This document shows, one piece after another, positions 1-24,283 of a DNA stretch of 24,437 nt. Under the pieces are notes generated by a model, which saw nothing but the letters and a program-made list of their open reading frames with translations, was not told the origin of the DNA and ran no database searches. Source of the DNA: a virus. The DNA is taken from positions 1 to 24,437 of IMG/VR virus record IMGVR_UViG_3300023174_002401, one strand, 5' to 3'. The position numbers and the translations under genes were made by a program. The number at the start of each line of letters is the position of its first letter. Position 1 is the stretch's first letter.

Positions 1-1
1 T

Positions 2-46
2 GAAGTGTTATTATCAGGCGAGCTAATGAGAAAATTTTATGTATAA
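2..46 (+). CDS. 3' end of an upstream gene (partial)
   Basis: An open frame enters from the left edge and stops with TAA at 44-46, encoding a tail that ends in GELMRKFYV. It overlaps the start of the next gene by 8 nt, a typical tight phage junction. The other two forward frames stop at positions 1-3 and 24-26, so this is the only frame that can carry a gene up to the gp5 start. Too short to assign; in T4-like phages other baseplate hub genes often lie near gp5, which is inference only. Confidence 0.45.
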   Translation, partial: EVLLSGELMRKFYV

Positions 47-1115
47 CGAAAACTTTATGGGCCTTTCAGGCTTTTTCTGGTTTACTGGCCTTGTTGAGGA
101 CAGGCAAGATCCACTCAAAGCAGGCCGTGTTCGTGTAAGAATATTAGGCCAGCATACATCCGATAAAACTTTATTACCTACGGAAGATTTACCATGGTCT
201 CTTGTTATGTTACCGATAACGGCCAGCGGCGTAAGTGGTATAGGAAATTCGGCGACCGGACTACTCGAAGGAAGTTGGGTGTTTGGTTTCTTTCGAGATG
301 GTCAGAGAAGGCAAGAGCCAGTTATATTAGGTAGTTTACCAGGAAGGCCTACTCAAGCAGCAAATAGCTCCTCTGGGTTTAATGACCCGAACGGAGTTTA
401 TCCTCGTTATATTAATGAGCCAGATGTAAATCGTCTGGCCATTAATGATCCTTTAAAACCACATCCAAGTCTGGCCATCAGAGAACAGGCCAGAACGTTA
501 GGTGTACCTACAGCGGACTTTAATCCTTATACAGCGGCCGATGGATCGGCAATAGCACCATCGGACAGCACTACATGGAATCAACCTGAATTGCCTTATG
601 CGGCCGTTTATCCAAGCAATCAAGTATATGAGAGTGAATCTGGCCATATCATGGAGTTTGATGATACAAAGGACAACGAGCGTATTCATCTTCGCCACAG
701 GACAGGCACTGGTACAGAGATTCACCCCAATGGCGACCAGACCACCATTACCAAGAATATAACAACAATCAACAATGGCCAGTCTAACCATTATATCACA
801 GGCGACTCTAATACCACTATAGATGGCCACCATAAGTTATTCATTAATAAAAAAGGAGAGGCCAATAACCACTACGATATACACATAGGGCCAAATGCCT
901 CTATTAACATAGTAGTAGAAACAGGTGATATAAACCTTGTAACTGGCCAAGGTAAAGTAAATGTCAATTCAGCAGGTGATTATAATTTAAAGGTAGGTGG
1001 TAATATGACAGTTACAGTAGCAGGCGAGTTTAATCAGAGAGTAGATGGTGGTTCTATATTAAACACATCAGGCACAGTGGTCATCACAGGTGAGACAATT
1101 GATCTTAACCCATAA
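39..1115 (+). CDS. 5: Baseplate hub / tail spike protein, gp5-like, no lysozyme domain
   Basis: Central spike of the contractile tail, expected to trimerise below the tail tube and carry the PAAR tip encoded at 8492. Residues about 11-105 look like the gp5 OB-fold: a GFFWFTGLVEDRQDP opening, then RVRVRILG, LPWSLVMLP and the G-S-W-V-F-G-F-F-R-D-G strand followed by EPVILGSLPG. A linker follows. From about residue 200 comes the ESGHIMEFDD..ERIHLRHRTGT segment that leads into the triple beta-helix, with repeated short beta strands (GDYNLKVGGNMTVTVAGEF) to the end. At 358 aa it is much shorter than T4 gp5 (575 aa), because no lysozyme domain lies between OB-fold and helix. ATG 39 is chosen; Met7 (57) is an alternative. 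The gene is unusually rich in GGCC compared with the rest of the window. Confidence 0.9.
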   Translation: MYNENFMGLSGFFWFTGLVEDRQDPLKAGRVRVRILGQHTSDKTLLPTEDLPWSLVMLPITASGVSGIGNSATGLLEGSWVFGFFRDGQRRQEPVILGSLPGRPTQAANSSSGFNDPNGVYPRYINEPDVNRLAINDPLKPHPSLAIREQARTLGVPTADFNPYTAADGSAIAPSDSTTWNQPELPYAAVYPSNQVYESESGHIMEFDDTKDNERIHLRHRTGTGTEIHPNGDQTTITKNITTINNGQSNHYITGDSNTTIDGHHKLFINKKGEANNHYDIHIGPNASINIVVETGDINLVTGQGKVNVNSAGDYNLKVGGNMTVTVAGEFNQRVDGGSILNTSGTVVITGETIDLNP

Positions 1116-1121
1116 CGAAGG

Positions 1122-1135
1122 CCAGCAGTAGCTGG
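1122..1135 (+). other. Small hairpin after the gp5 gene
   Basis: CCAGC-AGTA-GCTGG forms a 5-bp stem with a 4-nt loop just after the gp5 stop codon. No T-run follows, so it is at best a weak 3'-end structure. The rest of the gap to 1294 shows no gene; it also holds a CCTGG/CCAGG pair (about 1250-1275) just before the Fe-S carrier gene. Confidence 0.3.
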
Positions 1136-1294
1136 AGCAAAAAGTTAATCTATAAAGTGATGTAATGGTGTATCAATACTAGCAGGCCATTCATATATTA
1201 TCCATAGGAACTGGTGAATTTATCTAACATCCTTAGCCCTTAAAAATTTCCTGGTATATTTTTTACTGTTCCAGGTTTGAGTCTAAATATTGAT

Positions 1295-1627
1295 ATGGCA
1301 GATATTATTACATTAACAGATAAGGCAAAGAACTATCTTATTGGTATTATGGCCAAGTCTGGTAAAAGACATGTATTTCTACAGGCCAAAGGTGGTGGTT
1401 GTGCTGGATTTAAATATGATTGGTCTTATCCGAATGAGACTGATTTAGATAGTAAAGATACTTACATTCATATGGATGAAGGATATTCTTTAGTGATTGA
1501 TCGTTATAGTGCTTTTAAATTAATAGGCATGAAAATTGATTATATTGAATCTATCTCTGGTTCTAGTTTAGAAATATCAAATCCAAATGCGACTTCTACT
1601 TGTGGATGTGGTGAGTCTTTTTCTTAG
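1295..1627 (+). CDS. A-type iron-sulfur carrier (IscA/HesB/ErpA family)
   Basis: Fe-S cluster or iron carrier, predicted to hand clusters to apoproteins in the infected cell. The 110-aa product has the family layout: an N-terminal ITLTDKAKNYL helix, GGGCAGFKYDW with Cys36, and a C-terminal CGCG with Cys103 and Cys105, giving the three conserved ligands. The length matches the usual 105-120 aa. A TTG at 1277 could add six residues, but ATG 1295 gives the standard family N-terminus and is preferred. It converges tail to tail with the hydroxylase gene at 1624, overlapping it by 4 nt. Neighbouring iron enzymes and the SPASM enzyme at 23246 are plausible clients, which is inference. Family assignment is firm; the client is unknown. 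Confidence 0.9.
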   Translation: MADIITLTDKAKNYLIGIMAKSGKRHVFLQAKGGGCAGFKYDWSYPNETDLDSKDTYIHMDEGYSLVIDRYSAFKLIGMKIDYIESISGSSLEISNPNATSTCGCGESFS

Positions 1628-2193
1628 GGATTGTTTGGCGACATAGGCACGTCAAAGATAAAAGCAATACGTTCTGCTGGCCCTATATTTTCAGCCATGT
1701 GGTTTTTCTTATTATCAAACCAAAAGAAAGTTCCTGGTTCTACTACAATCACCTCTTTTGTATTATCATCATCGCCATCGTCCCAAACTGTATAACGATA
1801 TAGGCCTTTAATTGCTAAATGATAACGATCTTTTGTATGATAGTATTTACCTTGATCAATATGTTTACCTGTAATTTTACCTGCTGGTGTATTTAAAAAA
1901 GCACAACGACCTACTCTTAACGATTTTGATGCTAGCCATTGTTGAATGGCAATATGTCTTGTTGTTGCTTCTGTTGGTACACAAATTTCTGTATCACCTA
2001 TAAATTCATCAGATTTAGAAACGCCACCCATGACTAATTGAAGCACATCTGCTGTTACAAGTTTACTATGAGGATCTTGTCGATCAACACCTTTTAAACG
2101 GCTAGCATTACCCCAGTCTTGAGGATATTGTTCCAACTGTTCACGTATTTTAGATACGTCTATATTCTTTTCAATAATACGTATGTTCTTCAT
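1624..2193 (-). CDS. Aspartyl/asparaginyl beta-hydroxylase-like 2OG-Fe(II) oxygenase
   Basis: Predicted non-haem Fe(II)/2-oxoglutarate dioxygenase of the Asp/Asn beta-hydroxylase type, which hydroxylates side chains in proteins or peptides. The 189-aa product shows a double-stranded beta-helix signature: HID (His111, Asp113), RYHLAIKG at 123-130, then PGTFFWFDNKKNHMAEN with His165, and Arg175 in ERIAFIFDVP as the 2OG-binding Arg. This is the complete 2-His-1-carboxylate facial triad. Its ATG overlaps the stop of the 31-aa peptide upstream by ATGA, so translation is probably coupled. It is the last gene of the minus-strand run that starts at 3415. The substrate is unknown; a virion protein or a host ribosomal or envelope protein are all possible. 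Confidence 0.85.
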   Translation of the reverse strand: MKNIRIIEKNIDVSKIREQLEQYPQDWGNASRLKGVDRQDPHSKLVTADVLQLVMGGVSKSDEFIGDTEICVPTEATTRHIAIQQWLASKSLRVGRCAFLNTPAGKITGKHIDQGKYYHTKDRYHLAIKGLYRYTVWDDGDDDNTKEVIVVEPGTFFWFDNKKNHMAENIGPAERIAFIFDVPMSPNNP

Positions 2194-2285
2194 TTACGAA
2201 GTATATCTTTAATGATTAATACCCAAAAACATATTACGGTAATTATACTCATAAAGAAAAATGTAGTTATTATAAGAGATATCAT
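2190..2285 (-). CDS. 31-aa single-helix membrane peptide
   Basis: Begins ATG at 2285 and ends TGA at 2190. It encodes a hydrophobic stretch rich in Ile, Phe, Thr and Val over residues 2-25, then a basic end (KDILRK), consistent with one inner-membrane helix. It joins both neighbours by ATGA overlaps: its ATG overlaps the stop of the 24-aa peptide before it, and its TGA overlaps the ATG of the hydroxylase after it. Function unknown. The double coupling and clean hydrophobic pattern argue that it is translated. Confidence 0.6.
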   Translation of the reverse strand: MISLIITTFFFMSIITVICFWVLIIKDILRK

Positions 2286-2356
2286 TTACTAATGTAATGT
2301 AAAATTATTAAAGCCGGTATTAACAGTAATAAAGGAAATACAAATTGATAGATCAT
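2282..2356 (-). CDS. 24-aa single-helix membrane peptide
   Basis: ATG at 2356, TGA at 2282. Residues about 4-21 are Phe/Leu/Ile/Pro rich (FVFPLLLLIPALIIL), followed by HYISK: a minimal transmembrane segment. It starts 1 nt after the TAA of the 22-aa peptide and overlaps the following 31-aa peptide by 4 nt. No family recognised. Confidence 0.55.
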   Translation of the reverse strand: MIYQFVFPLLLLIPALIILHYISK

Positions 2357-2357
2357 A

Positions 2358-2426
2358 TTATCTCATTGAATAATAGGTAGCTACAATTAACACGATAACG
2401 GCCACTATAATATAAAAAGTTGACAT
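2358..2426 (-). CDS. 22-aa single-helix membrane peptide
   Basis: ATG at 2426, TAA at 2358. Almost the whole peptide is a hydrophobic Ile/Val/Leu/Ala helix (FYIIVAVIVLIVATYY) with a short polar end (SMR). It starts 1 nt after the stop of the nuclease gene and ends 1 nt before the next ATG, so it is the first of three chained micro-genes. No family recognised. Confidence 0.55.
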   Translation of the reverse strand: MSTFYIIVAVIVLIVATYYSMR

Positions 2427-2427
2427 A

Positions 2428-2859
2428 TTAATTGCACCATGATTGTTTAGCTTCGCCATAATATTCTCTAGCGTAACCATTTTTAATTAATAATGATCTT
2501 AGACTTTGTCCATCTAATATAATATCACCTAACACGCGACCACCAAACTTATCCCAATCAGCAATAGCTACTTCTATTTTCTTAGCATTAGCAATTGATT
2601 TCTTTGTAAATTCTGTAGCAGCTAGACCTTTAGTGTTTTCAGATTCACATTTAGCACGGAATCCTTTTTCTGGTGTATCAACACCATAGACACGAATAGA
2701 TAATTCTTTTTTAAGAGGTTCTGGTAAGAAATTTGCTTCAAATGCTACTGTATCGCCATCTAATACTCTAGTTAATTTATAATTGTATTTTTTCATTTCT
2801 ACATCCTTCGCTAACGCCAAAGTAGGTAGAATCATTAATATTAATAATAATCTTTTCAT
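2428..2859 (-). CDS. Exported thermonuclease-like (SNase family) nuclease
   Basis: Predicted Ca-dependent staphylococcal-nuclease-type enzyme that cuts DNA or RNA. Residues 1-17 form a signal peptide (Lys-Arg, hydrophobic core, LALA cleavage motif), so the enzyme should reach the periplasm. The mature part has TRVLDGDTV (DGDT 34-37), IRVYGVDTPE (Arg56, Asp61, Glu64) and DKFGGRVLGD (Arg108), matching the metal-binding and catalytic positions of the family, and ends with an LIKNGYAREYY helix. Cys71 and Cys142 could form a disulfide after export. At 143 aa it is a single compact SNase domain. It follows the 2OG oxygenase gene by 16 nt and leads the micro-peptide chain. Possible roles are salvage of extracellular or competitor DNA, or attack on incoming DNA in the periplasm; these are inference. 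Confidence 0.85.
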   Translation of the reverse strand: MKRLLLILMILPTLALAKDVEMKKYNYKLTRVLDGDTVAFEANFLPEPLKKELSIRVYGVDTPEKGFRAKCESENTKGLAATEFTKKSIANAKKIEVAIADWDKFGGRVLGDIILDGQSLRSLLIKNGYAREYYGEAKQSWCN

Positions 2860-2875
2860 ATACTATAATATAACA

Positions 2876-3415
2876 CTATTTAACTATTTTGTCAAGCGCT
2901 GGAACGTAATAATCAAATGTCATTACGCGTCTTTTGACATTTTCATTGTTTATATTAGCTTTATGTACAAATGCTTCATTGACATTTAACATAAACAATT
3001 CGCCCTTTTTAGGAAATAATTTAAATTCTTCAGTTGAATTTTTAATATCAAACCCATTATTAGAATCTTCTGTATTATCTAAGTACAAATTAAAAACCAA
3101 ACAAATATTTAAATCAGCCCAAGTATCTATATCGTTATGCCATTTACGAGCTTTATTGTGAGCAAGATTACAACCTAGTTTACGTAGGTTTTTATAACCA
3201 GAACCAAAAAAACTTACATATCGTTGTTCTATTAATAAACGAAATTCATCTATTATAGAAACTAATTTAAGATCGTTTTTATAAACATAATCGTCTGGTT
3301 GGTCGCCTGCTTGTATAAAATTATAATTATCAAAATCATATTTAAATACTTCCTGGAATGGTAATATTGTATAACCATTTATATAAAAATTATTTAGATT
3401 TTCAGTTGTCAACAT
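2876..3415 (-). CDS. 2OG-Fe(II) oxygenase (PhyH/prolyl-hydroxylase-like fold)
   Basis: Predicted Fe(II)/2-oxoglutarate dioxygenase of 179 aa. The metal triad is visible as KWHND (His93, Asp95) and a distal His151 (EAFVHKANINN), followed by KRR (161-163) supplying the likely 2OG-binding Arg, in a strand ending RVMTFDYYV. The NLYLDNTEDSNNGF segment at 109-122 is typical of the loop between the two metal motifs. It is the first gene of the minus-strand run. Its ATG sits 7 nt after a reverse-strand TATAAATA box, so the transcript should have almost no leader. Such enzymes are common in marine T4-like phages, usually with unknown substrate. Confidence 0.75.
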   Translation of the reverse strand: MLTTENLNNFYINGYTILPFQEVFKYDFDNYNFIQAGDQPDDYVYKNDLKLVSIIDEFRLLIEQRYVSFFGSGYKNLRKLGCNLAHNKARKWHNDIDTWADLNICLVFNLYLDNTEDSNNGFDIKNSTEEFKLFPKKGELFMLNVNEAFVHKANINNENVKRRVMTFDYYVPALDKIVK

Positions 3416-3422
3416 ATACTAT

Positions 3423-3434
3423 TATTTATAAATA
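3423..3434. promoter_or_regulatory. Palindromic bidirectional T4-type late promoter
   Basis: TATTTATAAATA is a perfect 12-bp palindrome that contains TATAAATA on both strands: 3427-3434 on plus and 3430-3423 on minus. The minus box lies 7 nt before the ATG of the 2OG oxygenase (3415). The plus box serves the small acidic protein at 3462, which has its own AAGGAG site. TATAAATA is the known T4 late promoter element; the bidirectional use is inference. Confidence 0.65.
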
Positions 3435-3461
3435 GTATTACCAATTAACCAAGGAGTTAAA

Positions 3462-3635
3462 ATGGGCAGAAAAAAAGTAAAAACTCCTGAAGATATAATT
3501 GAATCTATAAAAGAAAAACAATCTGAAATTGACGATTTATTGTACGACTTAGAAGATACTATAAGTGTTTCTTCTGATGAAGATATTTCCGACTTTGATG
3601 AGGAAGAGGAAATAGACGAAACAGACGAAGAATAA
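3462..3635 (+). CDS. 57-aa acidic hypothetical protein
   Basis: Starts at ATG 3462, 5 nt after a strong AAGGAG ribosome site (3451-3456) and downstream of a TATAAATA box. A basic start (MGRKKVKTP) is followed by a helical EDIIESIKEKQSEIDDLLYDLED segment, then a very acidic C-terminus of Asp/Glu runs. Acidic small phage proteins can be DNA mimics or assembly factors, but nothing here proves that. A strong hairpin follows the stop. No family recognised. Confidence 0.75.
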   Translation: MGRKKVKTPEDIIESIKEKQSEIDDLLYDLEDTISVSSDEDISDFDEEEEIDETDEE

Positions 3636-3652
3636 CAACAATCTATATTTCA

Positions 3653-3692
3653 GGTGCCTAGGTAACTAGGCACCCTTTGAAGCAACAAAGGG
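3653..3692 (+). terminator. Two overlapping hairpins between small late genes
   Basis: The first hairpin is GGTGCCTAG (3653-3661), loop GTAA, CTAGGCACC (3666-3674): a perfect 9-bp stem. The second is CCCTTTG (3673-3679), loop AAGCAA, CAAAGGG (3686-3692): a perfect 7-bp stem. They share CC at 3673-3674, so both cannot form completely together. There is no clear T-run, so this is either a rho-independent-like end without U-tract, an RNA stability element, or an attenuator ahead of the gene at 3697. Confidence 0.5.
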
Positions 3693-3696
3693 TTAA

Positions 3697-3864
3697 ATGG
3701 ATAACAGATACATAGGCCTAATTATATTAGGTATTATATTTTCATTACTATCATGGTTATATCTTTCAATCTATTGCCAATCAAAACGTTATATTAAAAA
3801 ACTTAACAGATTAAAAAAATTAAAGATACTATCTCAAAAAATAAGGAGAAAACGTGTTTGGTAG
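3697..3864 (+). CDS. 55-aa single-pass membrane protein
   Basis: ATG 3697 to TAG 3864. Residues 5-26 are a hydrophobic helix (IGLIILGIIFSLLSWLYL), followed by a strongly basic cytoplasmic tail rich in Lys/Arg (KKLNRLKKLK, IRRKRVW), so N-out/C-in topology is likely by the positive-inside rule. It overlaps the next gene by 11 nt, and that gene's ribosome site lies inside it. No family recognised. Confidence 0.65.
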   Translation: MDNRYIGLIILGIIFSLLSWLYLSIYCQSKRYIKKLNRLKKLKILSQKIRRKRVW

Positions 3865-4102
3865 AAAAAAAAGTAAAAACCCTAATTTAAAAACATTAAA
3901 GAAAAAAGCACCAAAGATACCAGACTTTACTTGTACTGATGTAGATCACATCATCAGTTATGTTGAAGATAAAGACTTGTTAAATCGCACTCAATTAGCA
4001 TACTTCAAAAGACGCATGGAAAAACTACGTACTTCTAATGAAAAATTAAGAGATAGTGGTATCTATTGGTATGAAGAAATTAAAAAGTTATTACATAAAT
4101 AG
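3854..4102 (+). CDS. 82-aa basic helical hypothetical protein
   Basis: GTG start at 3854, supported by AAGGAG at 3843-3848 with 5-nt spacing. A Lys-rich N-terminus (GRKKSKNPNLKTLKKKAPKIP) is followed by DFTCTDVDHIISYVEDKD and a helical C-terminal part (RRMEKLRTSNEKLRDSGIYWYEEIKKLL) with coiled-coil character. The pattern resembles small conserved proteins of marine T4-like phages, without known function. The unusual GTG start and the overlap with the membrane-protein gene suggest translational coupling. Confidence 0.7.
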   Translation: MFGRKKSKNPNLKTLKKKAPKIPDFTCTDVDHIISYVEDKDLLNRTQLAYFKRRMEKLRTSNEKLRDSGIYWYEEIKKLLHK

Positions 4103-4106
4103 ATAT

Positions 4107-4265
4107 ATGTACACAGACAGAATAAATGAGCCTCGGTATAATGCAGGCAATTTTCAAGAGTATGATTACGAATTAGAATGGATCGAATGTGTTTGGAATA
4201 TTACTTACAAACAAATTGAATTAGTAACGGCCTTTACTTATCCTTGGATCAAAAATTCTGTCTAA
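4107..4265 (+). CDS. 52-aa hypothetical protein
   Basis: The frame is open further upstream, but ATG 4107, just after the previous stop (4102), is the natural start. The product is Tyr/Trp/Glu rich (EYDYELEWIECVWNITYKQIE) without a membrane segment. A CATAAATA sequence (4094-4101), one base from the late box, ends 5 nt before the ATG. The 3' end overlaps the end of the convergent receptor gene by 17 nt. No family recognised. Confidence 0.55.
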   Translation: MYTDRINEPRYNAGNFQEYDYELEWIECVWNITYKQIELVTAFTYPWIKNSV

Positions 4266-5991
4266 ATCCAAATAAAAAATTTCTACCTAATTGATTATAA
4301 CCATCAGGCCTTTCATATTTCTCATTTGTTATATTATTTAATTTACTATACAATACAATATTACCTAAAGTATAATCAGCAACCAAATCAAAAGTGCTTA
4401 CTGAAGGCATATTTTTATTATTATATGTTACACTATCAATATCTAAATGAGAACCATAATAATTCCAGTTTGCTTTTAAAGATGTGTTTTCAATCTTATT
4501 ATAAGAAACTTCTAAATTATTAACCCATCTAGGACGTCTTGCCAATTCTTTACCTTTACTATCTTCCGCTATTATAAATGTAGTTGAATTTTTTAAATCT
4601 AAATTCAATACATTATGTTTTAATTTTGTTTCAATACCTTTTCTTGTGCTTGTACCATTATCATTTTCATATGTATTATTTTTATATATTAATAGATTAT
4701 TGATTTTACTTTCAAACACCGCAATATCAATAATTTTATTGTTATAACCTACTTCATAAGTTATACTTTTTTCTGGTATTAAATTAGAGTTACCTAAGAA
4801 ACCATAGTTATCTTTACCATACATTTCGTATAGTGTGGGCATTTTATATCCCGTTGATACACTTGTTCTAAAACCATTATAAAAAAGACCGACTCTTTCC
4901 GTTAATTGATTATCAAAGTTACTTGGCATATCATAGCGAGCCCCACCTGTTACAAATAATTCGTCAGATAAAAACTTACTAACATTAAAATAGTAACCAT
5001 GATTTTCTCTTTTCTTATCTACGAAAGAAACATAATCATCTATGTTGGTATTGAATTTCGCATTTGTAAATGTATGTTCAGTACCTAAACTTATATCAGC
5101 AATTGTATGAAAAGTGTTTTTAGTTAATAGAGTTTTAGCATTACTATCGTAAGTGTCTTTAACGCCTGATTTATTATATTCTCTATTGTGGTCTGTATTA
5201 TTTAAAGTAAATTCAAAATCATTATTTTTTTGTAAAGATAGTTGTTGATTTTTAAAATTCCATAAACCAGAATAGTTTGTATTATCAGCACCACTGTCAT
5301 CCAAATTTGTCTTATTGGTTTTATCTATGAAATTTGTTTTTAAAAACCAATCATCTACTATACGAGAATCTGTTTGTAAAATGTAATTACGTGTTCTAAA
5401 AGAATCTGGTTCATTACCTTTTGGATAAACACTTATACCATCACTAGTTTCATTTTCAATTTGTAAATCTATTATATGATTATCAATTTTTTTACCTAAC
5501 TTAATTGTTTGTGTTTTAGTATTTTTAGAACCATAAGATAGATCAATCCAATTTTTATCATTAGCCTGAGTTTTCATGTTAACAACGCCGCCGATTGCGT
5601 CAGGTCCATAAACACTTCCCATAGGGCCTTTGATAACTTCTAGTGATTGAACTCCTAAAAAATTATGTTGGCTTAAATCATCATTACCTGTAGGTGTACT
5701 GGCATCTTTAATTGGTATTCCGTTTAAAGTAAACAATGTATGATTTGAATTTGTACCACGTGTAAAAGTACTACTGAACTGGCCTTTTGGCCCATACTGT
5801 ACAATGTTTGTGCTAGTTATATTTTTTATATCATTTGGCTCTATAACGTCATAAGAATACGTTAATGGTAAATGTTCCTCTGCCGTTCTAAATGCTTGTA
5901 TTGTAATTTGAGGAATATTTTCGTAAGAATATTGTGAATATGAAGTATTGGTTAAGAATATGAATAATAATAATTTAATGAATAAACGCAT
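4249..5991 (-). CDS. TonB-dependent outer-membrane receptor (BtuB/siderophore-receptor type)
   Basis: Predicted 22-strand outer-membrane barrel with N-terminal plug that imports iron chelates, cobalamin or similar ligands using TonB energy. Residues 1-20 are a signal peptide. PQITIQAFR (27-35) is a possible TonB box. The plug (about 40-140) carries the family signatures TLFTLNGIPIKDAS (85-98) and VQSLEVIKGP..SVYGPDAIGGVVNM (114-139). The rest shows alternating beta-barrel strands, the SVSTGYKMPTLYEMYG segment, the NITNEKYERPDGYNQLGRNF end motif and a terminal Phe. At 580 aa it is intact and close to BtuB in size. It starts inside the end of a 36-aa peptide gene with its own sigma70-type promoter. 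Composition is as AT-rich as the rest, so it is not a fresh host insertion. The ligand is unknown; a nutrient-uptake role and a receptor-masking role are both possible. Confidence 0.93.
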   Translation of the reverse strand: MRLFIKLLLFIFLTNTSYSQYSYENIPQITIQAFRTAEEHLPLTYSYDVIEPNDIKNITSTNIVQYGPKGQFSSTFTRGTNSNHTLFTLNGIPIKDASTPTGNDDLSQHNFLGVQSLEVIKGPMGSVYGPDAIGGVVNMKTQANDKNWIDLSYGSKNTKTQTIKLGKKIDNHIIDLQIENETSDGISVYPKGNEPDSFRTRNYILQTDSRIVDDWFLKTNFIDKTNKTNLDDSGADNTNYSGLWNFKNQQLSLQKNNDFEFTLNNTDHNREYNKSGVKDTYDSNAKTLLTKNTFHTIADISLGTEHTFTNAKFNTNIDDYVSFVDKKRENHGYYFNVSKFLSDELFVTGGARYDMPSNFDNQLTERVGLFYNGFRTSVSTGYKMPTLYEMYGKDNYGFLGNSNLIPEKSITYEVGYNNKIIDIAVFESKINNLLIYKNNTYENDNGTSTRKGIETKLKHNVLNLDLKNSTTFIIAEDSKGKELARRPRWVNNLEVSYNKIENTSLKANWNYYGSHLDIDSVTYNNKNMPSVSTFDLVADYTLGNIVLYSKLNNITNEKYERPDGYNQLGRNFLFGFRQNF

Positions 5992-6085
5992 AAGCCAGAC
6001 ACCACAGTTCTAGGCCTAATTTGTATAATAAAAAAACAACAACGGGACCTAATAATAAACTTAAATAAAAATATTTTTCCTTCAT
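5975..6085 (-). CDS. 36-aa membrane peptide leading the receptor gene
   Basis: ATG 6085 to TAA 5975. MKEKYFYLSLLLGPVVVFLLYK gives a short charged start and a hydrophobic helix, followed by LGLELWCLAYAFIH. It lies directly downstream of the minus-strand sigma70 promoter and overlaps the receptor start by 17 nt in another frame, so it could couple receptor translation, act as a leader peptide, or be a small membrane partner. No family recognised. Confidence 0.5.
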   Translation of the reverse strand: MKEKYFYLSLLLGPVVVFLLYKLGLELWCLAYAFIH

Positions 6086-6095
6086 ATGTTTATTT

Positions 6096-6124
6096 ATTCT
6101 ATCATAAATTGTTCAAATTGTCAA
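6096..6124 (-). promoter_or_regulatory. Sigma70-type promoter for the receptor operon
   Basis: On the minus strand, TTGACA (6124-6119), a 17-nt spacer, and TAGAAT (6101-6096). This is a consensus -35 with a one-mismatch -10. The predicted start lies about 4 nt before the ATG at 6085. Confidence 0.75.
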
Positions 6125-6152
6125 CTTATTTACATCAATAAATAGTGTTGAC
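6120..6152. promoter_or_regulatory. Dyad between divergent promoters (possible operator)
   Basis: GTCAAC (6120-6125) and GTTGAC (6147-6152) are inverted copies, and inside them ATTTA and TAAAT are also inverted around a CATCAA-type centre. Part of the symmetry is forced by two opposed TTGACA boxes, but the inner arms are extra. It could bind a regulator that controls both genes together. Confidence 0.4.
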
Positions 6153-6176
6153 ATTAAGTATATTTTAATGTATAAA
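6148..6176 (+). promoter_or_regulatory. Sigma70-type promoter for the 375-aa gene
   Basis: TTGACA (6148-6153), a 17-nt spacer, and TATAAA (6171-6176). The ATG at 6184 lies only 7 nt after the -10 box, so the mRNA should be nearly leaderless. It is arranged back to back with the receptor promoter; the two -35 boxes are 23 nt apart. Confidence 0.75.
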
Positions 6177-6183
6177 AACTCAT

Positions 6184-7311
6184 ATGAAACCTAAAGCTCC
6201 TAAAGATACAGAACAAAAAGATAAGATTAAAGTAACTGAAAAGATAGATGTAAAAAGTCGTCTTGGTTATTTTTCTGAGTTTGTAACTGCTTATGAACTT
6301 GCCATTATAATAGATAGAAACAAAGGCAAACTTACAAGTAGAAGTAAAATTGAATTACTTAAACAAAGTATGAATCTTAGAAGAAACGAATTAATAAGAT
6401 TAAAAGTTTCGGCTGATGAATTAAAAAGACAAGAAACAGGCGGTAAAGTTATAGCCAATCAAATATTCAAAGATTTAATTTTGAATGGTAAAGAAGGTAA
6501 TGATTATCATACTTTAGAATTTGATATAGAATTAACTGGTGATAGTGCCAAAGGTGTAGAGAAAGCAGACGTTGTTGTTACTGTAAAACGTCCATCTAAA
6601 AAACAAATTGTAGATAGAATTGCTGCCTCATTAAAAACTTATAAAACACCAAATATTAATTTAGCAAACTCTACATTTACAAGTTTATTAAAAGTTCTTT
6701 CAGGTGATGATGAATATGAAAATAAAACATTACAAAAATTTGAACACATTATATTTACAGGTATGGTTGCTGAGTTTATGAAAATTAAAAAAATTAAAGA
6801 TAAAAAATTTGCTGAAGATGCTGTAGGTTCAGGTGAGAAATTTTTAAAAGAATATGGTTCTGCTTTATTTGGTAAAATAAAAGAAGCGGGCAGAGCAGCA
6901 TCGAAAGCTTCACATAAAGAAGTATCTAAACTAATTATAGGAGAATTTGATAAATTGTATAAAGATAATAAAAAGAAAATGAATCAAAATTTATTACATC
7001 TAATAGGTATGGATGGAGGTGATGATTTTTATGCCGCTATAGGTACTGCTGGCAAACAAAAAGTTTTATCATCAAGACAAAGTAAAGAAATGAAAGAATT
7101 TTTAGAATCGGTTAAAACAAATAAATTAAATGTTAATATGAAACCTAGTGATAGTGGTAATGCTATTGATGTTAGTATTCAGTTAGATAAAGAAGTAATT
7201 GCTAAATCTACAATAAGTTTTACAGATACCGGTATTGGTTCTGGTGGTATGACTAAAAGTAAAGGTGCCGGTAAAACAAACTTTTGGTTTAATGTTAAAG
7301 AGTTTATGTAA
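6184..7311 (+). CDS. 375-aa protein of unknown function, possible PD-(D/E)XK-like nuclease
   Basis: No family recognised with confidence. A Lys-rich disordered start (1-24) is followed by SRLGYFSEFVTAYELAIIID (Glu32). A later segment reads LEFDIELTGDSAKGVEKADVVVTVKR with Asp129, then IAASLKTYKTPNINLANSTF with Lys151. An early Glu, then KADVVV and an SLK strand, resemble a degenerate restriction-endonuclease-type core seen in some phage proteins, but the expected acidic residue before the Lys is Ser. The C-terminal third is helical and basic, then ends in beta strands with Gly/Ser-rich TGIGSGGMTKSKGAGKTNF. It has its own sigma70 promoter and no ribosome site, unlike the late genes around it. 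It could alternatively be a structural or DNA-binding protein. Confidence 0.6.
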   Translation: MKPKAPKDTEQKDKIKVTEKIDVKSRLGYFSEFVTAYELAIIIDRNKGKLTSRSKIELLKQSMNLRRNELIRLKVSADELKRQETGGKVIANQIFKDLILNGKEGNDYHTLEFDIELTGDSAKGVEKADVVVTVKRPSKKQIVDRIAASLKTYKTPNINLANSTFTSLLKVLSGDDEYENKTLQKFEHIIFTGMVAEFMKIKKIKDKKFAEDAVGSGEKFLKEYGSALFGKIKEAGRAASKASHKEVSKLIIGEFDKLYKDNKKKMNQNLLHLIGMDGGDDFYAAIGTAGKQKVLSSRQSKEMKEFLESVKTNKLNVNMKPSDSGNAIDVSIQLDKEVIAKSTISFTDTGIGSGGMTKSKGAGKTNFWFNVKEFM

Positions 7312-7450
7312 AATTTAAATTGTCAACCTCTTTACACCAATCATCAATTTCTTCTTTTAGCATAACATTAGAAAATCCTTTGTACTTAACTAGGTAACAT
7401 TTCCCCCAAGCACCAACGTAATTAATATCAATGATTTCTGGTTTATCCAT
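7304..7450 (-). CDS. 48-aa hypothetical protein
   Basis: ATG 7450 to TAA 7304. It encodes a soluble-looking peptide with Trp and Cys residues (NYVGAWGKCYLVKYKGF, EEIDDWCKEVDNL). Its start overlaps the end of the upstream membrane-protein gene by 8 nt, and its end overlaps the convergent 375-aa gene by 8 nt, filling the gap exactly. No family recognised. Confidence 0.55.
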   Translation of the reverse strand: MDKPEIIDINYVGAWGKCYLVKYKGFSNVMLKEEIDDWCKEVDNLNFT

Positions 7451-7670
7451 TTATATAATATATAATAAGACCTATTGTAGTAACAACGGCAAATATTAAA
7501 TTGGTAACAATTAAAGACATTTCTTTCCACATAATACTTACTATTAACCATACAATAGCACCTAGTCCTAATATGATTGGACCGGCAGGATAATAACCAA
7601 GTGAATTGACTAAACTACCAACAATTAATATACCGGTAGCAACCCATTTTAAAATTTGATCTGTTTTCAT
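7443..7670 (-). CDS. 75-aa membrane protein, two to three helices
   Basis: Begins MKTDQILKWVATGILIVGSLVNSLGYYPAGP, then IILGLGAIVWLIVSIMW and LIVTNLIFAVVTTIGLIIYYI: three hydrophobic segments with short turns. The arrangement resembles small inner-membrane proteins common in marine T4-like phages, whose function is not known. It starts 2 nt after the 96-aa gene and overlaps the next by 8 nt, so it is part of a minus-strand mini-operon beginning at 8097. Confidence 0.7.
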   Translation of the reverse strand: MKTDQILKWVATGILIVGSLVNSLGYYPAGPIILGLGAIVWLIVSIMWKEMSLIVTNLIFAVVTTIGLIIYYING

Positions 7671-7672
7671 AA

Positions 7673-7963
7673 TTATCTTTCGTAAATAGCAAACGTATCG
7701 GCATAAGTTCTATGAACGTAGTCTCTAGGCCTACGGTAATATCTATAACCATTAGGAAAATATTTACTAGAACCTCTATAACGTATTCTTAAAGGTTGAA
7801 CCATTTTAGAATAAGAATAAAATATACCTAAAAATTGTATAGGTATTCCTTTAGCAACGGAACGTTCACAATCTGATGAACGATATTGATTGATAAGGCC
7901 TTCGGCCGACAATAATACATCTTTAAACTTTTGTGTATTCATAATTTTATCAGCGTATTTCAT
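7673..7963 (-). CDS. 96-aa basic hypothetical protein
   Basis: ATG 7963 is preferred: it overlaps the stop codon of the upstream 44-aa gene as TAATG, indicating translational coupling; a TTG three codons earlier is less likely. A helical N-terminus (MKYADKIMNTQKFKDVLLSAEGLINQYRSSDCERS) precedes a Tyr/Arg-rich C-terminus (IRYRGSSKYF, GYRYYRRPRDYVHRTYADTF). No family recognised; the Arg/Tyr-rich tail could bind nucleic acid or lipid head groups. Confidence 0.6.
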   Translation of the reverse strand: MKYADKIMNTQKFKDVLLSAEGLINQYRSSDCERSVAKGIPIQFLGIFYSYSKMVQPLRIRYRGSSKYFPNGYRYYRRPRDYVHRTYADTFAIYER

Positions 7964-8097
7964 TAAATACAACCTATAATACAGTTAGCAGTACCATAAG
8001 CAACCATATATTTTGCTCCAATGTAAAATAAAGCGTAACTTCCTAGTACAATAGCAGCAACAAGTAACAATGATTTAACATCTTCTTTAGTAAACAT
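7963..8097 (-). CDS. 44-aa single-pass membrane peptide
   Basis: ATG 8097 to TAA 7963. MFTKEDVKS precedes a hydrophobic helix (LLLVAAIVLGSYALFYIGA), then KYMVAYGTANCIIGCI with two cysteines. First gene of a minus-strand run of four. Upstream there is a plausible TTGTTT, 17 nt, TATATT promoter on the minus strand. No family recognised. Confidence 0.55.
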   Translation of the reverse strand: MFTKEDVKSLLLVAAIVLGSYALFYIGAKYMVAYGTANCIIGCI

Positions 8098-8260
8098 TTA
8101 TTTTATTTTTTTGTTGTTAATATACATATAATATACACTGTATTTTTGATTAAAACAAGCGAAAAAAGCACTTTTTTTAAAGAAATAAAGCAACAAAATC
8201 AGTAACTTAAATAAATGTTGTAAAAATACAACACAAAAAATCATTATAAATAGTAAATAT
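8098..8260. promoter_or_regulatory. Divergent intergenic region with hairpin and late promoter
   Basis: AT-rich spacer with no gene. It holds a minus-strand promoter candidate for the 8097 run, an A6GCACT7 tract near 8162-8178, a perfect hairpin TGTTGTA-AAAA-TACAACA (8216-8233), and the plus-strand late box TATAAATA at 8245-8252, 8 nt before ATG 8261. Confidence 0.5.
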
Positions 8261-8392
8261 ATGATTGATTTTGACAAAATTGATGATTTATCATTTATGA
8301 TTGATGATATTGATTCGAAAAAACTAAAAAAGGCAAAAAATTATGGCAAGAAAAGTAGCAGGAAACACAAACGCATCAAAAAAAACAAGTAA
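8261..8392 (+). CDS. 43-aa acidic-to-basic hypothetical protein
   Basis: ATG 8261 lies 8 nt after the TATAAATA box. The N-terminal half is acidic and hydrophobic (MIDFDKIDDLSFMIDDID); the C-terminal half is Lys/Arg-rich. Its last 50 nt overlap the next gene in a different frame, so the basic half may be a by-product of that A-rich region. No family recognised; it could instead be untranslated leader of the following gene. Confidence 0.4.
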   Translation: MIDFDKIDDLSFMIDDIDSKKLKKAKNYGKKSSRKHKRIKKNK

Positions 8393-8492
8393 ACCAAAAA
8401 GAACAAGCATTGGACGTGGATTTCACAGCAAATGTATGATGAATAAACACAAAAGAAGAAGTTTTAAGAAATATAGAGGTCAAGGTAGATAA
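8343..8492 (+). CDS. 49-aa basic conserved phage protein
   Basis: ATG 8343 to TAA 8492. Highly basic: MARKVAGNTNASKKTSKPKRTSIGRG start and a KHKRRSFKKYRGQGR end. From memory, small proteins with a TSIGR segment and a terminal YRGQGR are widespread next to baseplate genes in T4-like cyanophages, with no known role. Its stop overlaps the PAAR start as TAATG, so the two are co-translated. The charge suggests binding to nucleic acid or an acidic protein surface. Confidence 0.75.
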   Translation: MARKVAGNTNASKKTSKPKRTSIGRGFHSKCMMNKHKRRSFKKYRGQGR

Positions 8493-8755
8493 TGCCAGGC
8501 GTTGCTCGCAAGAATAAAGACATAGCGGGCGGTGTTGCTATTGAAGGAAGTCAAAATGTTTTAGTAAATGGTGATGGTGTAGTTAGAATTGGAGATAAAG
8601 TAGCAAGCCACGGCTTACCTCCACATCAACCAACGCCTCCTATGGTTCAAGGTTCACAAAATGTATTTGTAAATGGTATTGGTATAGTAAGAGCTGGTGA
8701 TAAAGCAAATTGTAATCATAATATCACAGGTTCTTCAAATGTTTCAGTAAACTAA
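8492..8755 (+). CDS. PAAR-repeat tail spike tip protein
   Basis: Forms the sharp metal-stabilised cone at the end of the gp5 spike in contractile tails. The 87-aa product has the PAAR pattern: MPGVARKNKDIAGG, GSQNVLVNGDGVVRIGDKVASHG, then a second GSQNVFVNGIGIVRAGDK repeat. His40, His45, Cys74 and His76 are the likely metal ligands, an arrangement known to bind Zn or Fe in this family. Length is typical for a stand-alone PAAR protein. Coupled to the basic protein before it; gp25 follows after 16 nt with its own late promoter. Confidence 0.92.
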   Translation: MPGVARKNKDIAGGVAIEGSQNVLVNGDGVVRIGDKVASHGLPPHQPTPPMVQGSQNVFVNGIGIVRAGDKANCNHNITGSSNVSVN

Positions 8756-8763
8756 TATAAATA
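8756..8763 (+). promoter_or_regulatory. T4-type late promoter before gp25
   Basis: TATAAATA ends 8 nt before ATG 8772. The T4 geometry puts the transcript start about 3 nt before the ATG, so transcripts from here would be leaderless. No ribosome site is visible in between. It starts immediately after the PAAR stop codon. Confidence 0.6.
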
Positions 8764-8771
8764 TTAACACT

Positions 8772-9197
8772 ATGCCAAATTACGATGCCAGTTCTACGAA
8801 TACTAGCAAGCGAGCTAATGTAAAATATAAAGATTTGGATTTAGATTTTGGTCGTAATACAGTAACAAGTGATGTAAATAAATTAACAGATGTTGAAGCT
8901 GTTAAAAGAAGTGTTAGAAATTTAATTAATACATCACACTTTGAAAGGCCTTTTCATCCAGAAATAGGTTCTAGTGTTAGAGCAATGTTGTTTGAATTGA
9001 TGACACCACTTACAGCATTAAATCTTCAAAGAAAAGTACAAGAAGTTTTAGTTAATTATGAACCAAGAATTAAATTGGTACAAATAGCTGCTAGACCAAA
9101 TTATGATAGTAATGCTTATGATTTAAGTATTTATTTTTATATTATAGGTTCTAATGAACTAATAAATGTAGAAACGTTTTTAGAAAGACTAAGATAA
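8772..9197 (+). CDS. 25: Baseplate wedge protein gp25
   Basis: Wedge component at the interface of tube, sheath and baseplate, related to the lysozyme-like GPW/gp25 family of contractile machines. The 141-aa protein shows the family core: LDLDFGRNTVTSDVNKLTDVEAVKRSVRNLINTS, the FERPFHPEIGSSVRAMLFE motif, then LQRKVQEVLVNYEPRIKLVQI and a final pair of strands (YDLSIYFYIIG). Length and order match T4 gp25. gp6 starts 2 nt after its stop, as expected for the conserved gp25-gp6 pair. Confidence 0.95.
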   Translation: MPNYDASSTNTSKRANVKYKDLDLDFGRNTVTSDVNKLTDVEAVKRSVRNLINTSHFERPFHPEIGSSVRAMLFELMTPLTALNLQRKVQEVLVNYEPRIKLVQIAARPNYDSNAYDLSIYFYIIGSNELINVETFLERLR

Positions 9198-9198
9198 T

Positions 9199-11055
9199 AT
9201 GGCAAGTAACAAATTAGAAGTATCAGATTTTGATTTTGATAATATAAAATCAAATTTAAAAACATTTTTACAAAGTCAAACAGAATTTTCTGATTATAAC
9301 TTTGAAGGTTCAGGATTTGCCGTTCTTTTAGATATACTAGCATACAATACACATTATCTAGGTTTCAATGCTAACATGTTAGCTAATGAAATGTATTTGG
9401 ATAGTGCTGACATTAGAAAAAATATAGTATCTTTAGCAAAGATGTTAAATTATACTCCATCTTCTGTTAGAGCACCTATAGCAAATTTAAATATAACTGT
9501 AAATGACGCAACCGGTTCAACTTTAACATTAACAAAAGGAACTGCATTTGTAACTTCTGTTTTAGGAACAACTTATCAATACTTGACAAATCAAGATTAT
9601 ACTATTTCTCCTGTAAATGGTGTTTATAATTTTTCAAATGTAAATGTTTATGAAGGAACTTTAGTTACTTATAGATATGTTGTTGATAAAAATGATCCTG
9701 ATCAAAAATTTGTAATTAATAGTTTAAACGCTGACACAACCACATTAAAAGTTTCCATACAAAACAGTTCTACTGATACAATTACAAATATTTACTCTTT
9801 AGCTGGTGGATACAATGGTGTATCTAATACTTCTAACGTTTATTTTTTACAAGAAAACGAAGATGGAAAATTTGAAGTTTATTTTGGTGATGGTGTTGTA
9901 GGAACTTCTTTATCAGATGGTAATATTATAATATTGGAATATATTGTTACAAATAAAGATCAATCTAATGGTGCTTCCTCATTTACACTATCTACAACAA
10001 TCGGTGGATTTTCAGACGTGTCTATAAAAACAAATTCAGCATCACAAGGAGGAACAGAAGCTGAATCTAAAGAGTCGATTCGTTTTAATGCTCCTTTAAA
10101 TTATTCTGCTCAAAACAGAGCTGTAACAACAACAGACTATGAAACGATTGTTAAGTCGATTTATCCAAATGCTTTATCCGTAAGTGCTTGGGGCGGCGAA
10201 AATGATGAGACAGCAATATATGGTGTTGTTAAAATTGCTATAAAAGCAAAAAGCGGATCTACACTTACAAATTCAACTAAGTCAAGCATTGTTACAGCAT
10301 TAAAACCTTACAATGTTGCTTCTGTAAGACCTATTATTGTTGATCCTCAAATAACTTCTGTTTTAATTACAAGTAATGTTAAATACGATTCAAGATTGAC
10401 AACAAAAACTTCAGATACTTTAAAATCTGATGTTATTAATCAGTTAATAAATTACAATACTAATACTTTACAAAAATTTGATGGCATATTCAGATATTCT
10501 AAAGTAGTAGGATTAATAGATAATACAGATACTAGTATAGTGTCAAACATAACTACTATTAAAATTAGAAAAAATTTTACACCAACATTAAATTCATCTA
10601 CAAAATATGACATCTACTTTAGAAATTCATTATACAATCCTGTGGCAGGATATAATTCTTCTCAAGGAGGAATCTTAGAATCATCAGGATTTAAAATTAG
10701 TGGTGATACAAATAATGTTTATTATTTAAATGATGATGGTAATGGTAATATAAGAAGATATAGATTGGTTAATGGTGTTAAAACTTATGTGAACAATTCT
10801 CAAGGAACTATATATTACTCTACAGGTCAAATTGAAATATCATCTTTAAACATAACTAGTGTTGAAAATATTAGAAATCAAATATCAACAGCAATAGAAT
10901 TGACTGTAAAGCCAAATTCAAATGATATTGTTCCTGTACGAGATCAAATTGTAGAAATAGATATAGAAAATTCTTCAATCGCAGTTCAACCAGATACTTT
11001 TGTTGGAGGATCAGCAGAAGCAGGAGTAGGTTACACAACAGCAACTAGCTATTAA
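9199..11055 (+). CDS. 6: Baseplate wedge protein gp6
   Basis: Main ring-forming wedge protein of the baseplate. The N-terminus (FDFDNIKSNLKTFLQSQTEFSDYNFEGSGFAVLLDILAYNTHY, then ANEMYLDSADIRKNIVSLAKMLNYTP) is the gp6/Baseplate-J start motif. The middle part has NRAVTTTDYETIVKSIYPNALSVSAWGGE, the conserved baseplate J segment, and GGYNG/VYFGDGVVG turns. At 618 aa it is near T4 gp6 (660 aa). The C-terminus is Ser/Asn/Thr rich. It is packed between gp25 and the next gene with 2-nt gaps and no promoter in between. Confidence 0.94.
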   Translation: MASNKLEVSDFDFDNIKSNLKTFLQSQTEFSDYNFEGSGFAVLLDILAYNTHYLGFNANMLANEMYLDSADIRKNIVSLAKMLNYTPSSVRAPIANLNITVNDATGSTLTLTKGTAFVTSVLGTTYQYLTNQDYTISPVNGVYNFSNVNVYEGTLVTYRYVVDKNDPDQKFVINSLNADTTTLKVSIQNSSTDTITNIYSLAGGYNGVSNTSNVYFLQENEDGKFEVYFGDGVVGTSLSDGNIIILEYIVTNKDQSNGASSFTLSTTIGGFSDVSIKTNSASQGGTEAESKESIRFNAPLNYSAQNRAVTTTDYETIVKSIYPNALSVSAWGGENDETAIYGVVKIAIKAKSGSTLTNSTKSSIVTALKPYNVASVRPIIVDPQITSVLITSNVKYDSRLTTKTSDTLKSDVINQLINYNTNTLQKFDGIFRYSKVVGLIDNTDTSIVSNITTIKIRKNFTPTLNSSTKYDIYFRNSLYNPVAGYNSSQGGILESSGFKISGDTNNVYYLNDDGNGNIRRYRLVNGVKTYVNNSQGTIYYSTGQIEISSLNITSVENIRNQISTAIELTVKPNSNDIVPVRDQIVEIDIENSSIAVQPDTFVGGSAEAGVGYTTATSY

Positions 11056-22772: not shown

Positions 22773-22798
22773 TTTTACTGTACTAAATATTATAGTAT
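22764..22798 (+). promoter_or_regulatory. Inverted repeat spanning fibre stop and cupin start
   Basis: ATACTATAAT (22764-22773) and ATTATAGTAT (22789-22798) are perfect 10-nt inverted copies around a 15-nt loop. The upstream arm contains the fibre gene's stop and the downstream arm contains the first bases of the cupin ATG (22797). The stem is all A/T except one G-C pair. It could act as a transcript end or hide the cupin start. ACTAAATA, a weak late-box variant, ends 7 nt before the ATG. Confidence 0.45.
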
Positions 22799-23246
22799 GA
22801 TTAATGATTTAACTGATGAAATTTTATCCTTTTCAAGATACGAAAACAATCAAATCATTTATATAGATAAAAAAGGTAAAGACTATAAAGTTAAAAACGA
22901 AATAACTTATGGTACTTGGATTAAAACCTATAAAGATATTCCTCATATAAAAGTTGAAGGTTTAGAAGATAAATCATTTCATTCAAAAATATTAAAAGAT
23001 TTTAATTTAGATCATAAAGTAAATAGCGTTCATTTATTTTATAATCAATATGGTGGATTTTCTTTTCCAGAACATGCGGATGACACTAACGTTTTTTTAT
23101 ATATTGTAAAAGGATCAAAAAAAGTTTATATAGATAAACATCCAGTTTTAGTAAAAGAAGAACAAGCTGTTTTTATACCAAAAGGATTAAAGCACAAAGT
23201 TGATAGTTTATCAAATACTTGGGCATTAAGTATAGGATTTAATTAA
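22797..23246 (+). CDS. Cupin/JmjC-like metal-binding protein
   Basis: 149-aa protein with a compact double-stranded beta-helix. NSVHLFYNQYGGFSFPEHADDTNVFLYIVKGSKKVYID carries an HxD pair (His93, Asp95), and VFIPKGLKHKVDSL adds His133, the layout of cupin-fold Fe(II) dioxygenases (JmjC/AspH-like) or metal-binding cupins. The N-terminal 75 residues are not recognised. The stop overlaps the ATG of the radical SAM gene as TAATG, so the two are almost certainly co-translated and may act on one substrate. Whether it is an oxygenase or only a binding or recognition protein is open: no clear 2OG-binding Arg is visible at the end (TWALSIGFN). Confidence 0.7.
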   Translation: MINDLTDEILSFSRYENNQIIYIDKKGKDYKVKNEITYGTWIKTYKDIPHIKVEGLEDKSFHSKILKDFNLDHKVNSVHLFYNQYGGFSFPEHADDTNVFLYIVKGSKKVYIDKHPVLVKEEQAVFIPKGLKHKVDSLSNTWALSIGFN

Positions 23247-24283
23247 TGAATTGGATGTTTTATTTAAAGACAACTGAAACTTGTCAACTGAATTGTAAAC
23301 ACTGTTTTACTAGTGGCATAAATGGTAAAAAAATTTATTTTAATCATTTAAAAACCATTGATTTTTTAAAAAAATTTAGAGAATATTTTAATAAAGATTC
23401 AGATACAATTCATTTAGACTTTCATGGAGGAGAACCTTTTTTAGCACCAGTATCTCATATGAATAAGGTATACGAAGAATGTAAAGATTTGTGGCCCAAT
23501 ATGTCGTGGGGCATAACTTCAAATCTTGTTTTGAAATTAAAAGAAGAGCATTACGAATTTATAAAAGGCCCTTTAAAAAATCGTGTAGGCACTAGTTGGG
23601 ATCCTAAGATACGATTTGAAAATGATGCACAATATAATTTGTGGGAAAAAAATGTAAAAGATTTATTAAACAAAGGAGTTACAATAAGATTGTTTATTAG
23701 TGTAACGAAAGATACTATTGCTATAGAACCTATTGAATTATTAAAATGGATTAAAGAATTAGGTGTACAAGAAATATCTTTTGAACGTTTAACTGGCAAT
23801 GGTAATGCAAAATTACATCCTGAAATATTCCCCAATAATATAGAACAAGATAAGTGGTTTCTAAAAATGCACCATCAATCTAAAGAGTTTAATTGTAGGA
23901 GTTGGTTTGATAATGATACATTAGAAGTTATATACAGTAAATTTGAAACGGGGTTTTTAAAAGGTGGCACATTTTGTAGAGATTGTGAACAAAAAATATT
24001 CACTATAAATGCTGATGGAACCATATCAGGTTGTCCTAATTCTGCACCAGAGTTCTCGTTTGGTACAATAAATGACGATATACAAACCATTATAAATAGT
24101 CCAGTTAGAATAGAAAACATTGCTTGTGAACGTGCAAGAAATCCTATATGTTTTTCTTGCGAAGTTTTTGAGTTTTGTGGAGGTGATTGCCACCAACTTG
24201 CTTGGCAAGGTGATATATGTGGCGCACCTAAGAGCTTAATGAAGGAATTAAAAAGTAATATAAAATATGACAACATTAAATAA
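23246..24283 (+). CDS. Radical SAM enzyme with SPASM domain (peptide/protein maturase type)
   Basis: Generates a 5'-deoxyadenosyl radical from S-adenosylmethionine; SPASM members usually modify peptides or proteins. The radical SAM cluster motif is CQLNCKHC (Cys13, Cys17, Cys20), with GGEP at 61-64 for SAM binding and the usual barrel strands. The C-terminal SPASM part has Cys244 and Cys247, then INADGTISGCP (Cys263), and the CFSC..FCGGDC array (Cys302, 305, 311, 315) plus Cys325, enough for one or two extra 4Fe-4S clusters. The 345-aa length fits PqqE/anSME-like maturases. It is fused by TAATG to the cupin gene and overlaps the next virion gene by 17 nt, so it is embedded in the structural operon. 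The substrate is unknown; a virion protein is the simplest guess. Confidence 0.9.
   Translation: MNWMFYLKTTETCQLNCKHCFTSGINGKKIYFNHLKTIDFLKKFREYFNKDSDTIHLDFHGGEPFLAPVSHMNKVYEECKDLWPNMSWGITSNLVLKLKEEHYEFIKGPLKNRVGTSWDPKIRFENDAQYNLWEKNVKDLLNKGVTIRLFISVTKDTIAIEPIELLKWIKELGVQEISFERLTGNGNAKLHPEIFPNNIEQDKWFLKMHHQSKEFNCRSWFDNDTLEVIYSKFETGFLKGGTFCRDCEQKIFTINADGTISGCPNSAPEFSFGTINDDIQTIINSPVRIENIACERARNPICFSCEVFEFCGGDCHQLAWQGDICGAPKSLMKELKSNIKYDNIK

Follow-up and report, generated by a model that had tools for sequence, protein, structure and literature searches.

Do three open reading frames encoding only 22, 24 and 31 amino acids, wedged between a nuclease gene and a hydroxylase gene in a phage, represent real genes, and what might their products do? 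The window, i.e. the whole 24,437-nt stretch of DNA analysed, comes from a viral record of 24.4 kb (IMG/VR record IMGVR_UViG_3300023174_002401). It is assigned to a T4-like pelagimyophage, as a fragment of a genome closest to that of Pelagibacter phage Mosig, because its baseplate wedge protein shares 69% identity with that of Mosig (EXVC030M) and 55% with that of HTVC008M. The Mosig-like baseplate, the sole basis for a host assignment, points to a likely SAR11-type host; a scan with a nuclease profile gave no clue to the host, as the name Pelagibacterales is absent from all 11 bacterial MAG loci recovered. The operon is located in an accessory interval that is bounded by a gp5-like gene and gp25 and varies between Mosig and HTVC008M as well, and a DNA search of this region among phages matched solely a piece of the hydroxylase gene.

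The minus-strand frames A, B and C tile the 234 nt between the nuclease stop and the hydroxylase start, and the successive operon junctions read TAATATG, TAATATG, ATGA and ATGA (Table 1). The microgenes are not preceded by clear ribosome-binding sites, and their start-stop coupling is exact. The sequence-only reading had described this chain, joined by 1-nt gaps or ATGA overlaps, with coordinates and lengths that proved exact, and had judged it improbable by chance. In 20,000 dinucleotide-preserving shuffles of the 234 nt, searched for exact chains of ORFs of at least 15 aa running from nuclease stop to hydroxylase start, any exact chain was found seven times, at least two links four times and three links never, in agreement with that judgement. 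The description of the products as one-helix membrane peptides is also well supported: the best 19-residue Kyte-Doolittle means are 2.15 for A, 2.44 for B and 2.47 for C, consistent with a single helix each, and the frames are kept in relatives. All three, with fewer than 50 aa and one hydrophobic helix, fall into a descriptive class that may be called the one-helix phage microprotein.

Table 1. Positions of the operon, its promoter and other features of the window (numbered from its first nucleotide)
Feature	Position	Strand	Description
Microgene A	2358..2426	-	one-helix peptide, 22 aa, MSTFYIIVAVIVLIVATYYSMR; ATG 2426 to TAA 2358; 1-nt gap before B
Microgene B	2282..2356	-	one-helix peptide, 24 aa, MIYQFVFPLLLLIPALIILHYISK; ATG 2356 to TGA 2282; ATGA overlap with C; second-position changes depleted
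Microgene C	2190..2285	-	one-helix peptide, 31 aa, MISLIITTFFFMSIITVICFWVLIIKDILRK; ATG 2285 to TGA 2190; ATGA overlap with hydroxylase ATG 2193
SNase-type nuclease, exported	2428..2859	-	143 aa; Pfam SNase, phrog_452; signal peptide ending ALA/K; stop TAA 2430-2428, 1-nt gap before A ATG 2426
2OG-Fe(II)/Asp-Arg-hydroxylase-like protein	1624..2193	-	189 aa; phrog_32420; terminal gene of operon
Sigma70-type promoter of operon	2867..2895	-	TTGACA-17-TATATT, TG before -10; -10 ends 7 nt before nuclease ATG
T4-type late motif TATAAATA	8245, 8756, 13606; 3430-3423	+; -	before structural genes, small ORF at 8261, 2OG oxygenase at 3415
2OG oxygenase gene upstream of operon promoter	3415-2876	-	
Microgene F	5975..6085	-	one-helix, 36 aa; separate from the A-B-C chain; 17-nt overlap with start of TonB-dependent receptor gene
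TonB-dependent receptor	4249-5991	-	580 aa; plug and barrel, Pfam 1e-26
IscA-like Fe-S assembly gene	1277-1627	+	converges on hydroxylase end, 4-nt overlap
Cupin and radical-SAM/SPASM genes	22797-24283	+	cupin gene overlaps the other by one base; after structural gene; resembles a peptide-modification pair
Small hydrophobic ORF	3697-3864	+	55 aa; same accessory interval
Small hydrophobic ORF	7963-8097	-	44 aa; same accessory interval
Small hydrophobic ORF	7443-7670	-	75 aa; same accessory interval

The flanking genes resemble known enzymes. The nuclease matches the Pfam SNase family (3.3e-10) and phrog_452, an endonuclease family; its catalytic Arg, Asp, Glu and Arg (R56, D61, E64 and R108) are invariant across 12 homologues, its relatives keep a cleavable-looking signal peptide of their own, and it is apparently an active exported enzyme. 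The hydroxylase matches phrog_32420 (9e-41), and for Pfam PF05118 the window protein scores below the cut-off and a homologue (L016) above it. The best PDB matches of its AlphaFold model (pLDDT 89) include proline and aspartate hydroxylases, and the HxD...H motif of the double-stranded beta-helix is conserved, with H111, D113, H165 and R175 invariant in 29 homologues.

Homologues were gathered through both flanking genes and the peptides themselves. A was recovered in L001, L002, L007-L010 and L179 and B in L001, L002, L008-L010 and L179, and C, the most widespread of the set, also occurs without the nuclease or before another oxygenase. All alleles keep the ATG, the stop, the frame and the hydrophobicity, with length differences of whole codons, and the start-stop junctions that the sequence-only reading had singled out are conserved along with the frames. 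Frameshifts or premature stops beside intact flanking genes, which would speak against these frames being genes, were absent from about a dozen C alleles, 8 A rows and 6 B rows; relatives differ instead by the presence or absence of whole genes and by allele swaps. In unconstrained simulations along the allele trees, all ORFs stayed intact in 63 of 5000 runs for A, 58 of 5000 for B and 1 of 5000 for C. Parsimony steps at codon positions 1/2/3 numbered 11/14/19 for A, 16/5/17 for B and 40/14/36 for C. Second-position changes are therefore depleted in B (5/38) and C (14/90), as would be expected if a hydrophobic helix (NTN codons) were kept and the exact residue left free. The comparison of synonymous with non-synonymous change thus bears out the coding of B and C, whereas in A, with its short sequence and a dN/dS of about 0.2-1, the signal of purifying selection is weak; the case for A, the weakest of the three, draws mostly on its open frame, conserved ends (MxTF...M[RK]) and hydropathy. 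The peptide sequences drift fast in relatives, and the constraint on the microgenes appears to be purifying but loose. Together, these data indicate that A, B and C are real genes for single-helix microproteins. When compared with Pfam, PHROGs, NCBIfam, PADLOC and PDB sequences, the peptide families gave no significant match; a search of the phage collection with C was empty up to E 10, and peptide-led scans of viral contigs recovered only this gene neighbourhood.

Between the same flanks, this cassette holds from zero to four microgenes placed end to end, i.e. about 0-350 nt. The order A-B-C is found in the window and in L001, L002, L008, L010 and L179, D-A-B-C in L009, A-C in L007, D-C in L165, and C alone in L015, L086, L087, L091 and L168; L169, whose record is cut at its left end, has C and E. 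The cassette is empty in L092 and L093, in which the nuclease is joined to the hydroxylase by TAATG. Where the nuclease is absent, the same kind of promoter precedes C and the hydroxylase (L003) or the hydroxylase alone (L004-L006). In L085, the gene after C encodes a different, unrelated PF13759 oxygenase, and five relatives (L084, L088-L090 and L094) have the nuclease, no peptide and then the same downstream gene as L085. C lies directly before an oxygenase wherever the right flank is intact, except in L169, in which one ORF separates the two. A, B, C and D all encode one helix, though their sequences differ. L172 (102-240) has an intact C followed by a hydroxylase frame only a few codons long, which seems to be cut off at a recombination joint.

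Alleles are exchanged as well as lost. The flanking proteins of L008 and L009 are 97-98% identical, with a dS of 0.11 for both nuclease and hydroxylase, whereas amino-acid identity is 64% for A, 67% for B and 48% for C, and dS reaches 1.93, 0.55 and 0.38, respectively. Similarly, L010 and L007 have a dS of 0.22-0.24 in the flanks, but 0.75 in A and 1.13 in C; the converse is seen between L009 and L179, with C 81% identical and the flanking proteins 74-80%. Synonymous divergence is raised only within the cassette, which indicates import by recombination and not just fast protein change. These patterns indicate that the microgenes are optional and exchangeable between close phages. Such mosaicism suits genes of competition, yet it is common for any accessory phage gene.

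The promoter of the operon abuts the nuclease start and leaves almost no leader, so that the nuclease transcript may be leaderless. It is one of two 11/12 matches within positions 1-9300, and in the window as in 19/19 relatives some 6-8 nt separate a sigma70-type promoter from the nuclease start. In a scan, promoter-like sites were overall no commoner than expected by chance, and the evidence for this promoter is therefore its conservation and position. The late motif TATAAATA lies 15-26 nt before the starts at 8261, 8772 and 13632 (+) and 3415 (-), with a count across the whole window not above chance. The two motifs are read here as in the study of the related phage Melnitz, which treats sigma70 promoters as early and TATAAAT as late (PMC9004378). 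By this analogy, the operon is likely to be expressed early. In cyanophage S-SM2, a homologue of the hydroxylase lies between uvsX and gp41, a replication setting in keeping with early or middle expression. The gene upstream of the operon promoter has a late-type motif of its own (3430-3423), and late read-through from it into the operon is possible.

A second such arrangement, that of microgene F and the TonB-dependent receptor gene, follows a sigma70-type promoter with the sequence TTGACA-17-TAGAAT. F is strongly conserved, in L185, L186 and L190 (dN/dS about 0.1) and in L196, and is readable in L195; the motif GLELWCLAY at its C-terminus is still present in L195 and L196, whose receptor is 49% identical. 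One-helix microgenes chained to envelope-related genes behind sigma70-type promoters thus occur twice in the window. The receptor itself is an unusual phage gene. Its relatives were found on 17 viral contigs, the only matches in the phage collection were Salmonella-derived records, including two contigs on which 16S rRNA is found as well, and a genome scan with the receptor recovered no bacterial relatives.

From gene structure, conservation, mosaicism and the promoter motif, which are established directly, we infer a course of events that extends to timing, coupling, membrane insertion, topology and function. The host-type (early) promoter would drive nuclease-(D)-(A)-(B)-C-hydroxylase, and ribosomes would reach every microgene through termination-reinitiation at the TAATATG and ATGA junctions. 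The peptides are predicted to insert into the inner membrane with an N-out/C-in topology, because the positive charge of the A, B and C alleles is found at their C-terminal end. There they may modify the host membrane early in infection, for example by blocking the entry of superinfecting phage DNA, while the co-expressed nuclease would act in the periplasm; the exchange of microgenes between phages would proceed through recombination within the conserved flanking genes. The peptides are thus tentatively viewed as optional early inner-membrane microproteins that serve host takeover or competition between phages, with superinfection exclusion as an example, at a probability of roughly 0.4. This role fits the exchange among close relatives, the likely early expression and the company of an exported nuclease. 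Among the roles proposed in the sequence-only reading, the general class of envelope modulator is the favoured one.

The other readings are weakened by the patterns of presence and absence. The microgenes could be translational coupling spacers that pass ribosomes from the nuclease to the hydroxylase, the peptides themselves doing little; the exact coupling without clear ribosome-binding sites and the fast drift of the sequences are in keeping with this, but L092 and L093 couple the two genes directly without any spacer, and the retention of frame, hydrophobicity and a single helix in four different peptides argues against it, making it unlikely. Somewhat less probable still is that C serves the terminal 2OG oxygenase as membrane anchor or small subunit, as found in some membrane enzymes. 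Its place before the oxygenase (apart from the ORF in L169) and its persistence with the hydroxylase of L003 speak for such a pairing, whereas close hydroxylase homologues lack C (L004-L006, L092 and L093), the oxygenase that follows C in L085 is unrelated, and C alleles have been swapped while the hydroxylase remained nearly unchanged.

The sequence-only reading had also suggested lysis factors and export helpers, both now disfavoured. Small single-helix membrane proteins could act as holins, pinholins or antiholin-like factors, and late read-through from 3430-3423 is conceivable, but the neighbours are a nuclease and an oxygenase, with no endolysin nearby and no lysis gene adjacent, the promoter abutting the operon is of sigma70 type rather than late, and close relatives, which must still lyse cells, have freely lost the whole set; a lysis role is thus very improbable. 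A role in the export or regulation of the nuclease would explain why the peptides lie directly downstream of it in most relatives, yet this enzyme has its own signal peptide, occurs without peptides in L084, L088-L090 and L092-L094, and is missing where C persists in L003, which leaves this the least probable reading of all. A type I toxin was considered and dropped, as the position in the operon and the coupling are unsuited to one.

Takeover or competition at the inner membrane remains the preferred reading. One specific form of it, a speculative one about as doubtful as the oxygenase-subunit reading, is a superinfection-breakdown module: the swapped peptides would bind inner-membrane proteins that rivals need to get their DNA into the cell, so that this DNA would be left in the periplasm and destroyed there by the exported nuclease, and the peptide set would fix the range of excluded rivals. 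T4 makes the early superinfection-exclusion proteins Imm and Spackle, and one of its early exclusion proteins is periplasmic (PMC7677548). The peptides had no sequence match to known exclusion proteins in Pfam, PHROGs, NCBIfam or PADLOC.

Proteins of 22-31 aa lie under the usual gene-calling cut-offs, and in most phage genomes cassettes of this kind would therefore escape notice. That phages otherwise nearly identical swap a block of a few hundred bases points to selection on membrane peptides with hardly more than one helix, and the block offers a compact, testable system for the study of minimal membrane proteins in phage competition or in the takeover of abundant ocean bacteria.

T4 Imm has about 83 aa and mature Spackle 75 aa; both are longer than A, B and C and not detectably homologous to them. 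They are alike in being early, small, envelope-targeted proteins of T4-like phages (PMC7677548), insofar as the operon described here is early and its peptides enter the membrane. The hypervariable islands of pelagimyophages likewise hold variable genes between conserved modules, and roles in avoiding coinfection have been suggested for them; the published host-recognition cluster runs from VrlC to gp14 over tens of kb, whereas the present cassette, in the gp5-gp25 interval, measures about 0-350 nt (PMC7029224). Small ORFs were also read in Mosig, HTVC008M and Melnitz as a comparison, with no claim of homology. The hypothetical 31 and 39 aa ORFs of the Methylophilales phage Melnitz are, like A, B and C, tiny one-helix proteins of a T4-like marine phage, but neither start-stop chaining nor membership of a swappable cassette is known for them. 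The literature, to the limited extent accessible, describes no matching family and no chained swappable cassette. One-helix phage microproteins are thus already known, and it is the chained, swappable cassette of them that looks new.
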